From positions 248,001 to 312,000 of the forward strand of contig NZ_VRTZ01000002.1 in NCBI RefSeq assembly GCF_008017545.1: a DNA stretch of 64,000 bases. Direction: 5' to 3'. A program made the position numbers and the translations under genes. Source of the DNA: Homoserinibacter sp. GY 40078. Lineage in GTDB: Bacteria > Actinomycetota > Actinomycetes > Actinomycetales > Microbacteriaceae. Positions 4,781 through 29,904 of this stretch are shown one piece after another. Every line of letters starts with the position of its first letter. Within the stretch, counting starts at the first letter, position 1. The notes under the pieces were generated by a model that ran no database searches, was not told the DNA's origin, and saw only the letters and a program-made list of their open reading frames with translations.

Positions 4781-5688
4781 GCGAGGAGTCGATGCCGAGT
4801 GCAGGGTTCCGCGCGGGTTTCGTGACCTTCGTCGGGCGCCCGAACGTCGGCAAGTCGACGCTCACCAACGCGCTCGTCGGCGAGAAGGTCGCGATCACGT
4901 CGTCGAAGCCGCAGACCACGCGCAACGCGATCCGCGGGATCGTGCACACCGAATCCGGTCAGCTCGTGATCGTCGACACCCCGGGGATCCACCGGCCGCG
5001 CACGCTTCTCGGCGAGCGTCTCAACGCGGTGGTCACGTCGATCCTGGGCGATGTGGACGTCATCGGATTCTGCGTGCCCGCCGATGAGAAGATCGGCCCC
5101 GGCGACCGCTTCATCGACGAGCAGCTGGAACGCTTCCCTCGCGCGAAGAAGGTCGCGATCGTCACGAAGATCGACGCGGTGCCGCGCCCGCGGGTTGCGG
5201 AACAGCTGCTCGAGGTGAGCCGCCTGCGCGAATGGGAGGCGATCATCCCCGTCTCGGCGCAGAGCCGCATCCAACTCGACACCTTGATGCGTGAGCTGAT
5301 CGGTCTGCTACCGGAGTCTCCGCCGCTGTATCCGGAGGACGCGCGCACCGACGAGTCGCTCGAGCACCGGATCGCGGAGCTCATTCGCGAGGCGGCGCTC
5401 GAGGGCGTGTCGGATGAGCTTCCGCATTCGCTCGCGGTGACGATCGACGACATCGTGGAACGCGACGACCAGGAGCTCGTGGAGGTCTACGCGAACGTCT
5501 GGGTGGAGCGCGACAGTCAGAAGGGCATCATCATCGGCAAGGGCGGCGCACGCCTGCAGGAGGTGGGAACGCGCGCCAGAGCCGGCATCGAACCTCTCGT
5601 GGGATCGCGCGTCTACCTCTCGCTGCGCGTGAAGGTCGCGCCCAACTGGCAGCGCGACCCCAAGCACCTGACCCGCCTGGGCTTCTGA
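4777..5688 (+). CDS. era: GTPase Era, 30S assembly factor
   Basis: This 303-residue protein has a GTPase domain (G1 GRPNVGKS, switch I SKPQTTRNAIRG, G3 DTPGIHRP, G4 TKID) and a C-terminal KH RNA-binding domain with GIIIGKGG. Era binds the 3' end of 16S rRNA and checks small-subunit assembly. Length and motifs are typical. It ends the phoH-ybeY-CNNM-era run. Twelve nt after its stop begins the palindromic repeat at 5701, which could act as its terminator. Confidence 0.97.
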   Translation: MSEESMPSAGFRAGFVTFVGRPNVGKSTLTNALVGEKVAITSSKPQTTRNAIRGIVHTESGQLVIVDTPGIHRPRTLLGERLNAVVTSILGDVDVIGFCVPADEKIGPGDRFIDEQLERFPRAKKVAIVTKIDAVPRPRVAEQLLEVSRLREWEAIIPVSAQSRIQLDTLMRELIGLLPESPPLYPEDARTDESLEHRIAELIREAALEGVSDELPHSLAVTIDDIVERDDQELVEVYANVWVERDSQKGIIIGKGGARLQEVGTRARAGIEPLVGSRVYLSLRVKVAPNWQRDPKHLTRLGF

Positions 5689-5700
5689 CCCCGCCCCCAT

Positions 5701-5765
5701 CCCGCGAGATGTCCATATCTGCACATCTCGCGTGTCGAATCCTGCACTTCTCGACATCTCGCGGG
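5701..5765. repeat. 65-bp palindromic repeat, left copy (E1)
   Basis: The outer arms CCCGCGAGATGT (5701-5712) and ACATCTCGCGGG (5754-5765) are perfectly complementary. Two inner hairpins fit inside: CGCGAGATGT/ACATCTCGCG, and TGTCGA/TCGACA around 5733-5756. Its reverse complement matches the copy at 6694-6758 at 56 of 65 positions without gaps. The element at 29841-29904 shares the same arms. Confidence 0.9.
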
Positions 5766-5826
5766 ATGTGCACGGGGGGAGGGATGCGGAGGCGGTTGCG
5801 GAGAGGCGCGCGGGCAGGGTGGGCGG

Positions 5827-6711
5827 ATGCACGACATCCCTCACGATCTCGCCCGCCGTCCCTTCAGCGTTCAGGAGGCTCTCGCCCGCGGAATGACGCC
5901 GGGTCAACTCCGACGGATGCGGTGGGCGCGGCCGTACCCCGGCGTCCGGTCATCGCAAGCACCGCCAGAGGACGACATCGACGAGCGCTGCAGGCACTAC
6001 CTTCCGAGGCTCGGGGCGGATGAGTACTTCAGCCACCTGACCGCCGCGCGCCTCTGGGATCTGTGGCTCCCGACGCGCGTTCAGCCCGCCGAGCCGTTGC
6101 ACGTGACCGTGACCGGCTCGGCGCGCGCACCCCGCATCCAGGGTGTCATCGGACATCACATCGAGCCGGATGCCGCTCACGCCACCTTCGTCCGCGGTCT
6201 GCCGGTATCGACGCCGATCGACACCATCCGGATGATCTCTCCGTCGCTCAGCTTGGAGGCGCTCATCGTCGTCCTCGACGGTGTTCGCCGCCGCACCGAC
6301 CCGCTTGTCGGTGAGCGCAGCCTCCTCCACATGCTTGCCAAGCACCGAGGCAGGCGAGGCATCCGGATGCTGCGTGCGGCATATGAGTTGAGTCGACTCG
6401 GGGTCGACTCGCCGCGCGAGACGCGCCTGCGCCGCCGAATGGTGTTGGCCGGATTGCCGGAGCCGGCCGTGAACGCGGTGATCTCGCGGCCGGGCGCGCC
6501 CGAGCGCCGGGGAGACCTCGTATTCGCGTCCTGGGGCGTCGTCGTGGAATACGAAGGCGAGCATCATCAGAGCGACCGCGCCACCTATGTGTCCGACATT
6601 GCGAGGTTCGAGCAGCTGCGCGATGACTGGACTTTCGTACGCGTCACCGCCGAGCACATGCGAGACATCCCTGCGCTCATCGCTCGCATCCGCCGCGCGA
6701 GACGTCGATAA
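5827..6711 (+). CDS. AbiEi-like N-terminus with C-terminal DUF559/Vsr-like nuclease fold
   Basis: This is a 294-residue protein. Residues about 10-45 (FSVQEALARGMTPGQLRRMR) look like the winged-helix start of AbiEi-type antitoxin domains. Residues 65-160 resemble the AbiEi middle region. Residues 198-280 look like a PD-(D/E)XK nuclease of the DUF559/Vsr type: E198, D230 in GDLVF, and E241/E243 with H246-H247 in VVVEYEGEHH. No partner toxin gene is adjacent. The gene lies inside inverted palindromic repeats, and its last five codons and stop lie within the right repeat. Function is unknown; nuclease activity and any link to the repeats are inferred. Confidence 0.65.
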   Translation: MHDIPHDLARRPFSVQEALARGMTPGQLRRMRWARPYPGVRSSQAPPEDDIDERCRHYLPRLGADEYFSHLTAARLWDLWLPTRVQPAEPLHVTVTGSARAPRIQGVIGHHIEPDAAHATFVRGLPVSTPIDTIRMISPSLSLEALIVVLDGVRRRTDPLVGERSLLHMLAKHRGRRGIRMLRAAYELSRLGVDSPRETRLRRRMVLAGLPEPAVNAVISRPGAPERRGDLVFASWGVVVEYEGEHHQSDRATYVSDIARFEQLRDDWTFVRVTAEHMRDIPALIARIRRARRR

Positions 6712-6758
6712 CTGCACGATTCGGCCCGCGAGATGTGCATATTTGGACATCTCGCGGG
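6694..6758. repeat. 65-bp palindromic repeat, right copy (E2)
   Basis: The strong half is CCCGCGAGATGT (6725-6736) and ACATCTCGCGGG (6747-6758) with a 10-nt loop. The left half (6694-6724) is a diverged second hairpin that overlaps the 3' end of the upstream gene, including its TAA at 6709-6711. It is inverted relative to the copy at 5701-5765, with 9 mismatches in 65. Confidence 0.88.
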
Positions 6759-6833: not shown

Positions 6834-8072
6834 ATGTGGAGGCCGATCGCGACGTTCCAGCTCGTCGTCGACATCCTCATCGCCTCCGGCTATTTCGTCT
6901 TCTTCGGCCTGCTCGCCTACCGCGGCTATGTCGTCGACCTCATCGTGATCGCTGGGTTCGCGGCCTCCCTCGCCCTCCGGCGGAAGGCGCCGGGCTTCGC
7001 TCTCGGCATCGCGTGGTGCGCGGCGATCCTTCAGATGGTGCTCCGCATCGATCCCGGCCCGCTCGATGTCGCCGTGTTCCCGATCGTCTACACGGCGGCC
7101 GCCTACGGCACGTCGCTCGTCCGCTGGCTCGCGCTCGCCTCGTCGATCGTCGCCCCCGCCACGATCACCGGGTACATCATCATCACCCAGGGCTGGGACT
7201 CGCTCAGCATGTGCCTGCAGTTCCAGTACAGCTCTTGCGCCAGCTACGTCCCCGGCCTCGCCGGACGTGCCGTCGGCTGGTTCGTCGCCTTCACGTTCGC
7301 ATTCCTCCTGGCCTGGACGATCGGGCAGCTCGTGCGCACACGCGTGCGCGCCCGGGCGAGCCGCGCCGCCGCGCTCGCCGCCGAGACGGAGATCGTGGCC
7401 GAGCAGGAGCGCACCCGCATCGCCCGCGACATGCATGATGTGGTCGCGCACTCCCTCGCGGTCGTGGTGGCCCAGGCGGATGGCGCGCGCTACGCAGCCG
7501 CGTCCGATCCCGAGACCGCCAACGAGGCGCTCCGGACGATCGCCGCCACGGCCCGCGAGGCGCTCGCCGACGTTCGGGTGCTGCTCGCACAACTGCGCTA
7601 CCAGCAGGACGACGGCCCGCAGCCTACTCTCGGCGATCTCGACCGCCTCCTCGATCAGCTGCGCTCGTCCGGACTCCGGATCGTGCGCGAGGACTCCGGT
7701 GCGCCGCTGCCTCTCGGCGCGACGATGCAGCTGGCCGTGTATCGCATCGTTCAGGAGTCGCTCACCAACGTTCTCCGTCACGCGGACGCGTCGCGCGACG
7801 TGGGCCTGCGTTTCGCCTGGAGCTCGCACGGTCTCGAGCTGCAGGTCTCGAGCGCGTTGCGCGATGCGCGACCTCGAACGGGACTCATCCAGGTTCCCGG
7901 CAGCGCGGGTCACGGCATCGCAGGCATGACCGAGCGCGCCGCGCTCTCCGGGGGATGGCTGCGCGCGGCCCCGCAGGGCGATCGCTTCATCGTCACCGCG
8001 TGGCTTCCCTACGCGCCGACGGCCTCCCATCCGCCCATCACGGTTCCCGTCGCCCCGAAGGACCCCGCATGA
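6834..8072 (+). CDS. sensor histidine kinase (HisKA_3 type)
   Basis: This 412-residue protein has about five or six N-terminal membrane segments (residues 1-165). The dimerisation/phosphoacceptor helix RTRIARDMHDVVAHSLAVVV (His near 201) and a HATPase domain with IVQESLTNVLRHA and GHGIAGMTERA follow. It should autophosphorylate and pass phosphate to the regulator encoded directly downstream (ATGA overlap). The ATG was chosen over an upstream ATG inside the palindromic repeat because TAGCGT (6821-6826) ends 7 nt before it, matching the leaderless pattern. Envelope stress or antimicrobial sensing is plausible given the ABC exporter downstream. Confidence 0.88.
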   Translation: MWRPIATFQLVVDILIASGYFVFFGLLAYRGYVVDLIVIAGFAASLALRRKAPGFALGIAWCAAILQMVLRIDPGPLDVAVFPIVYTAAAYGTSLVRWLALASSIVAPATITGYIIITQGWDSLSMCLQFQYSSCASYVPGLAGRAVGWFVAFTFAFLLAWTIGQLVRTRVRARASRAAALAAETEIVAEQERTRIARDMHDVVAHSLAVVVAQADGARYAAASDPETANEALRTIAATAREALADVRVLLAQLRYQQDDGPQPTLGDLDRLLDQLRSSGLRIVREDSGAPLPLGATMQLAVYRIVQESLTNVLRHADASRDVGLRFAWSSHGLELQVSSALRDARPRTGLIQVPGSAGHGIAGMTERAALSGGWLRAAPQGDRFIVTAWLPYAPTASHPPITVPVAPKDPA

Positions 8073-29836: not shown

Positions 29837-29840
29837 CGAC

Positions 29841-29904
29841 CCCGCGAGATGTCCGTTTTGGCACATCTCGCGCGCGAGATGTGCCAAAACGGACATCTCG
29901 CGGG
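29841..29904. repeat. perfect 64-bp palindrome (E3), stand-alone copy
   Basis: Two 32-nt arms are exact reverse complements without a loop. Each arm is itself a hairpin (CGCGAGATGT, 10-nt loop, ACATCTCGCG). The terminal CCCGCGAGATGT/ACATCTCGCGGG arms equal those of the repeats at 5701 and 6694. It lies between prpB and prpC inside the operon. Confidence 0.95.

Follow-up and report, generated by a model that had tools for sequence, protein, structure and literature searches.

To our knowledge, REPIN/RAYT is the best-studied instance in which an enzyme encoded on the chromosome is linked to palindromes of one family. The comparison with it made in this study draws on four sources (PMC3116915, PMC8266576, PMC3733652 and PMC8049555). 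The conflict-system protein MTES_1575 itself is described in PMC3710099 as having more than 2,100 residues with HEPN, helicase and transglutaminase domains. The locus considered here lies in a 64,000-nt stretch of DNA (the window) from the 2.98-Mb genome of Homoserinibacter sp. GY 40078 (G000), and consists of a nuclease-like gene boxed in by two palindromic repeats. We consider it probable, at roughly 0.68, that this gene together with its repeats represents a single copy of a two-part mobile system, nuclease and palindrome, widespread in actinobacteria. No account of such an association was found in the open PMC literature, outside which most subscription papers lie, and its novelty is provisional.

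The left palindromic element (5698-5768) comprises a 65-bp repeat at 5701-5765 with three bases of extended palindrome on each side, and has a 16-bp outer stem; the right element occupies 6694-6758. The reverse complement of the left repeat matches the right one at 56/65 positions without gaps, and the inverted match extends to 75 nt at 87% identity, bearing out the original prediction that the two are true inverted copies flanking one gene. The next-best places in the window for this alignment were the left repeat itself (44/65, because it is palindromic) and position 29840 (37/65), part of a third copy. This third, solo copy of the same repeat family (29841-29904) is a perfect 64-bp palindrome. 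Folded as single-stranded DNA, the left copy reaches -21.4 kcal/mol (z -6.0 against 200 shuffles), versus a z of only -3.4 for the right copy, in which the well-formed hairpin is the outer half (6725-6758); the corresponding values are -14.1 for the solo copy and -10.9 for the repeat of another homologue locus, L025. The boxed gene runs from 5827 to 6711 on the forward strand and encodes 294 amino acids. As had been predicted, its last codons and TAA stop are supplied by the right repeat, in the worn inner half of that element. No other convincing gene was seen inside the box at the window locus. Its neighbours, recognised from their sequence, are an era-like gene ending at 5688 and a histidine kinase-like gene starting near 6834; no AbiEii toxin gene is adjacent at the window locus. 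The solo copy sits between methylisocitrate lyase-like and methylcitrate synthase-like genes, recognised in the same way, and might affect the mRNA of the operon there.

The N-terminus of the encoded protein is AbiEi-like over residues 13-146 (5863-6264, forward strand; PADLOC PDLC02228, E 2.1e-7) and is probably DNA-binding. Residues 195-280 (6409-6666, same strand) form a nuclease core of the Vsr/DUF559/MTES_1575 type, containing S195, E198, R202, D230, E241, H247 and D257. The window protein alone had no match to Pfam or NCBIfam. Among 20 aligned members used for Pfam matching, from which the window protein was left out, MTES_1575 (PF18741) was matched at E ≤ 0.01 in 14/20 and DUF559 (PF04480) in 7/20; for L071 the respective values were 8.6e-8 and 5.6e-7. 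AbiEi models matched 15/20 members. The proposed pairing of an AbiEi-like region with a DUF559/Vsr-like PD-(D/E)XK nuclease is upheld. No transposase domain was found in the 20 members with Pfam or NCBIfam, the matches being MTES_1575, DUF559 and single marginal families. Across 68 homologues, S195, E198, R202, D230, H247 and D257 are invariant (68/68), E241, Y242 and G244 are kept in 67/68, and E243 of the window protein is not conserved. Accordingly, the residues first named for the nuclease stand at E198, D230, E241 and H247 but not at E243, and S195, R202 and D257 had gone unnamed.

A profile search against solved structures pointed to 3hrl (E 0.004), the homing nuclease domain 3r3p (E 0.006), which we take to be I-Bth0305I of the EDxHD motif class, and PvuRts1I (E 0.05), all of them marginal. 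The predicted structure model, built from three sequences, has a mean pLDDT of 49, with 54-78 by block in the last 94 residues. In this low-confidence model only, the nuclease core follows an alpha-beta-beta-beta-alpha-beta order, and a fold search with the same poor model gave no match at E ≤ 0.001 and a weak one to the EDxHD/Vsr-fold homing class (E 0.64). The two named relatives of the window protein among public genomes belong to Microbacterium.

Homologues were detected in 103/149 sampled genomes of the family at E ≤ 1e-10, and in 147/296 genomes of the class at E ≤ 1e-8 with a Microbacterium query. Co-occurrence of gene and repeat, a check suggested with the original prediction, proved general: the same element was present on both sides, at a score of at least 18, at 81/115 usable loci from 83 genome or plasmid records. 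By group, the boxed loci were 48/74 in f1, 15/16 in f24, 2/3 each in f4 and f19, 1/1 in f2, 2/2 in f34, 3/4 in f29, 2/5 in f10, 0/1 in f27, 2/2 in f5 and 1/1 in Microbacterium, and all three Arthrobacter plasmid records with a homologue were boxed (3/3); phages gave one distant match. The denominator is 126 homologue loci less 11, namely the duplicates L147 and L151, L082, whose frame was not placeable, and those cut at contig ends (L030, L081, L091, L096, L160, L205, L207 and L211), with L144 (the same place as L024) and G004's copy within L033 uncounted. The 34/115 loci under the threshold of 18 include one, in G003, with worn but visible repeats.

Mismatched flank pairs reached a score of 18 once in 4,744 (0/2,586 cross-family and 1/2,158 within f1). 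Looser controls at a threshold of 17 gave 14/4,494 and 20/992, figures in which some pairs came from orthologous loci or had a repeat in common; the 992-pair control also contains L160, mis-framed by its contig-end cut, whose direct score of 476 is an artefact. In an earlier set of 98 loci, which still included L160, flank against flank scored at least 18 at 63/98 loci and in 0/42 window ORFs, and any of three measures was positive at 78/98 loci versus 4/42 window ORFs, one of the four being era, which terminates at the left repeat; the set of 42 was drawn mechanically on length, and some of its ORFs may be false. The mismatched-flank, window-ORF and window-alignment controls together lead us to reject a chance origin of the box. 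The element sequence varies from homologue to homologue, and in most boxes the elements lie ~75-210 bp before the start of the protein match and 0-180 bp after its end. At the 73/117 loci with a score of at least 20, the two copies were inverted in 28 cases, direct in 20 and undecidable in 25. Both relations occur because each copy is itself a palindrome, and the 20 direct pairs rule out strictly inverted terminal repeats as a general feature.

The tie between enzyme and repeat was examined in genus g120 (family f24), whose palindromes are of two kinds, A (TTGATCATGGAG) and B (TTGATCTTGGAG). Ten of its 18 homologue loci are flanked by the A 12-mer, eight by the B 12-mer and none by both, the exact 12-mer being on one side only at some loci; L160 was assigned in the course of the tree analysis. 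In a tree of 17 g120 proteins (L160 left out) and seven outsiders, the A and B nucleases fall on separate branches with 100/100 support; four genomes (G277, G322, G218 and G249) carry A and B both. Family A elements are present in 11/12 g120 genomes versus 0/8 others. The exact A elements number 28 in G205, 10 in G190, 7 in G249, 1 in G304, 33 in G277, 8 in G322, 8 in G218, 2 in G258, 3 in G346, 0 in G364, 4 in G286 and 44 in G268, counts that include box copies (1/1 in G304, 2/3 in G346 and 4/10 in G190). B elements number 38 in G322, 9 in G277, 0-2 in the other ten g120 genomes and 1 in G295; these are undercounts, as the gap limit of 45 in the B pattern misses 70-bp copies, such as both box copies at L170, L198 and L206, and they therefore say nothing on whether copy number follows the B nuclease. 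The link between copy number and nuclease presence is not a clean one: G268 has its 44 A elements yet one weak nuclease match only (E 8e-9). Cognate copies were counted for three repeat families.

Within G268, 15-20 of 20 A copies show pairing at positions 13-22; compensatory changes are almost lacking in the stem, and the inner loop pairs poorly. The inner stem of A differs between genomes and, by eye, is still paired in many copies; the invariance of the outer 12 bases of A and B is by construction, the search patterns having fixed them. L025, L099 and L100 share one locus (downstream DNA ~80% identical) and encode proteins 47-66% identical. Their palindromes are related and by eye have in common a core resembling AGTACG(C/T)ACTT, which reads AGTACATACTT in one of the copies. 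That a palindrome core should remain recognisable at such protein identity is unexpected of unselected intergenic DNA, and this persistence argues that the repeats are probably needed.

Whether repeat-gene-repeat units sit at different loci was among the checks suggested with the original prediction, and they do. Proteins 72-81% identical are found at unrelated loci, and the DNA match ends exactly with the two repeats, at their outer borders, in L103/L112 and within ~50 bp of them in L154/L165, L165/L157 and L161/L170. L154/L157 have both flanks in common with the box inverted; the box is inverted in L168/L166 too, where the left flank of one matches the right flank of the other, a flank match on one side only. 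The L154 site is present in 4/12 g120 genomes: the box lies there in G205 and, inverted, in G190, G322 (which carries both A and B nucleases) has a solo B, and in G268 there is other sequence that includes half an A element.

A crude ORF test on 40 elements read in G322 and G268 placed them between convergent genes in 20 cases, tandem genes in 11 and divergent genes in 1, with 2 inside an ORF and 6 unclassified; elements may insert at terminators, or copies at other sites may be selected against. Their flanks are C-rich on the left and G-rich on the right, and no target-site duplication of length 2-9 stood clearly above shuffles in the 40 elements. A few elements form the middle of longer palindromes. 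Flank complementarity over 39 elements averaged 3.41 versus at most 3.10 in 500 shuffles, a difference carried by a few copies, and insertion at the centre of older palindromes is suggestive only. The element dropped from this comparison, L256, has the same 14-nt flanks as L237; the two are the same element near both ends of a 7.7-Mb contig (G268 C1:9411 for L237 and C1:7708877 for L256), and their wider 260-nt flanks are not identical. On its reverse complement, L194 has another palindromic pair, CCTGGGTGTGAGGCGCG and GCGCCTCACACCCAGG, within 900 bases.

In the system that we propose, the first part would be the AbiEi-like N-terminus joined to a Vsr-type PD-(D/E)XK nuclease, and the second a cognate palindrome of ~55-75 bp that boxes the gene and also stands solo between genes. 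The AbiEi-like region would most likely bind palindromes of its own family, whether in duplex form or as an extruded hairpin, and the nuclease would nick or cut at or near the palindrome. Resolution of the break by repair or strand transfer could then copy the palindrome or the whole box into intergenic sites, flip it there or remove it, and the symmetry of the palindrome may allow a box to land in either orientation. At the level of sequence, the association, the cognate specificity and the movement of the unit are supported, as is the original suggestion of a nuclease that may act on the repeats, spread them or depend on them in a REP/RAYT-like manner with an unrelated enzyme; we infer that the protein binds and cuts the palindrome, and that the elements are moved by it and not by some other enzyme. 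We give an even chance to the fuller statement that, in much of the actinobacteria, hairpin-ended elements of a new class are mobilised by a Vsr-type nuclease joined to an AbiEi-like domain, each clade moving its own palindrome family as solos and as one-gene boxes able to insert, invert or depart, with the nuclease in place of a transposase.

The nuclease would equally be the driver in a homing-type variant, in which it cuts solos or the empty site, the box is copied in by recombination, deletion between repeats regenerates a solo, and solos spread by other means. The alternation of box (G205, G190) and solo (G322) at the L154 site is what this variant predicts, and so is the era locus, which was compared in nine genomes of the genus, G000 included. 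The nuclease gene lies between era and the kinase in G000, G003 and G004 and is absent there in the other 6/9, which answers, here for sister species, the suggested check for empty sites in relatives. In G006 and G008 the era site holds a solo palindrome of another family; among the palindromes from the 98 loci, the closest to the G008 solo is the box of G008's own nuclease, L100. The alternation at the L154 site and the G008 solo speak for the proposed system as well. At this locus the left repeat has scores of 20 (G003) and 18 (G004), where shuffles reach 10 at most, and the right repeat is weaker (13 and 11, scores without shuffle) and visible by eye. Repeat matches at E ≤ 0.001 were confined, among the nine, to G000, G003 and G004, which may share the repeat by descent. 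A palindromic target further predicts insertion in either orientation, and in-place inversion was seen; the nearest solved relatives by profile, which include 3r3p and 3hrl, also point this way, but at marginal E-values. The dozens of solo copies are unexplained by homing itself, and the solos at one site are often of different families in different species. We judge this variant unlikely.

The repeat family elsewhere in the genome bears on a further reading, in which the palindromes are MITE-like, moved in trans by another enzyme, and the nuclease is chance cargo. A search of G000 with the 65-bp repeat returned 25 match rows, and 11 distinct places match at least 63 of the 65 positions, the two box copies and nine more; the half-unit GCGAGATGT-N10-ACATCTCG had 30 strand hits in the genome and its reversed pattern 0. 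Eight of the 11 places form four pairs, each spanning less than 1 kb: the window box and three pairs round other genes, presumably DUF2236-like, DUF899-like and GNAT-like. Pairs round non-nuclease genes would suit chance cargo, as would a box holding one gene only, and they show that such boxing is not peculiar to the nuclease. However, the DUF2236-like gene, whose pair (C1:987831/988667) has the same repeat as the window box, was rejected as passenger cargo, since it is resident at the same place and in the same orientation in G002, G005, G006 and G008 without that repeat; its pair is thus best read as two solo copies. The repeat family also follows the nuclease clade in g120, and across many bacterial families the members of this gene family are boxed by repeats that differ widely in sequence. 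In a search made for PF01797 only, this HUH Y1 transposase was found in 0/9 genomes of the genus and in 5/14 control genomes, an absence for which identity with RAYT is likewise rejected. We hold chance cargo to be quite improbable. As evidence against its inference, the original prediction had named same-locus homologues without repeats, together with repeats spread independently of the gene: repeats without the gene do occur (the solos, and the pair round the resident DUF2236-like gene), but the same-locus homologues in two other species keep worn flanking repeats.

At the DUF2236 site, palindromes of other families are present in G005, G006 and G008, with none evident by eye in G002; sites recur, then, while palindrome families change. 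Downstream of a beta-glucosidase-like gene (L172-L176), different palindrome families were seen by eye at one convergent gene end in 4/5 species, as if the site had been refilled again and again. In G000, three repeat copies (L013, L014 and L018) form a local cluster within 0.8 kb (C1:1375849-1376612).

A purely regulatory role, with the palindromes as operators for the AbiEi-like domain and/or two-way terminators without a part in movement, would accord with the preference for convergent gene ends (20/40, crude ORF test), the strong hairpins and the AbiEi-like domain itself, but deserves hardly any weight, as an operator is not needed after the gene and lineage-specific multi-copy sequence, homology edges at the repeats and in-place inversion are unexpected of terminators. 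Both this role and chance cargo fit less well than the readings in which the nuclease is the driver.

If the proposed nuclease-palindrome system is real, an unrelated second enzyme would occupy the same role and the REPIN/RAYT way of life would have evolved more than once. It could also explain the interspersed palindromes of actinobacterial genomes and would provide a function for a large set of DUF559/AbiEi-like genes. The proposal is directly testable, because dozens of enzyme-palindrome pairs are now listed.

Among known systems, insertion sequences and MITEs resemble the box in having one gene between terminal repeats and repeat copies without the gene; unlike in those elements, a known transposase domain was not found here, nor a target-site duplication among the 40 elements. 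The AbiE toxin-antitoxin systems share the AbiEi-like region, which is here fused to a nuclease in a box without a partner toxin gene. The MTES_1575-type REases (PF18741) of conflict systems have the nuclease domain family in common with the 14/20 aligned members, whereas the present gene stands alone and encodes 294 amino acids. With the EDxHD/Vsr-fold homing endonucleases the likeness is in fold class and in the order of E, D, H and D (the profile match at E 0.006), while the gene described here is intergenic, palindrome-boxed and provided with an AbiEi-like N-terminus.

The comparison with REPIN/RAYT is the most extensive. Both have a single enzyme gene beside palindromes, extragenic multi-copy repeats and repeat families tied to particular enzymes (PMC3116915; PMC8266576), and both show long persistence (PMC8049555). 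Doublets folding as one long hairpin are a further likeness, clear for the left copy of the window and less so for the right, and in both systems repeats also occur without the enzyme gene. A difference lies in the enzyme, here a Vsr-type nuclease with an AbiEi-like domain rather than an HUH Y1 transposase. The conserved ends, as seen in the window copies and families A and B, also appear not to be GTAG. GTAG/CTAC occurs in none of the three window copies, CGTC/GACG occurs once, inside the right copy, and GTAG/CTAC is present somewhere in 4/40 family A or B elements, the ends of which read CCCGCGAG or GTTGATC. Finally, and again unlike REPIN/RAYT, whole boxes of gene and palindromes relocate and invert.
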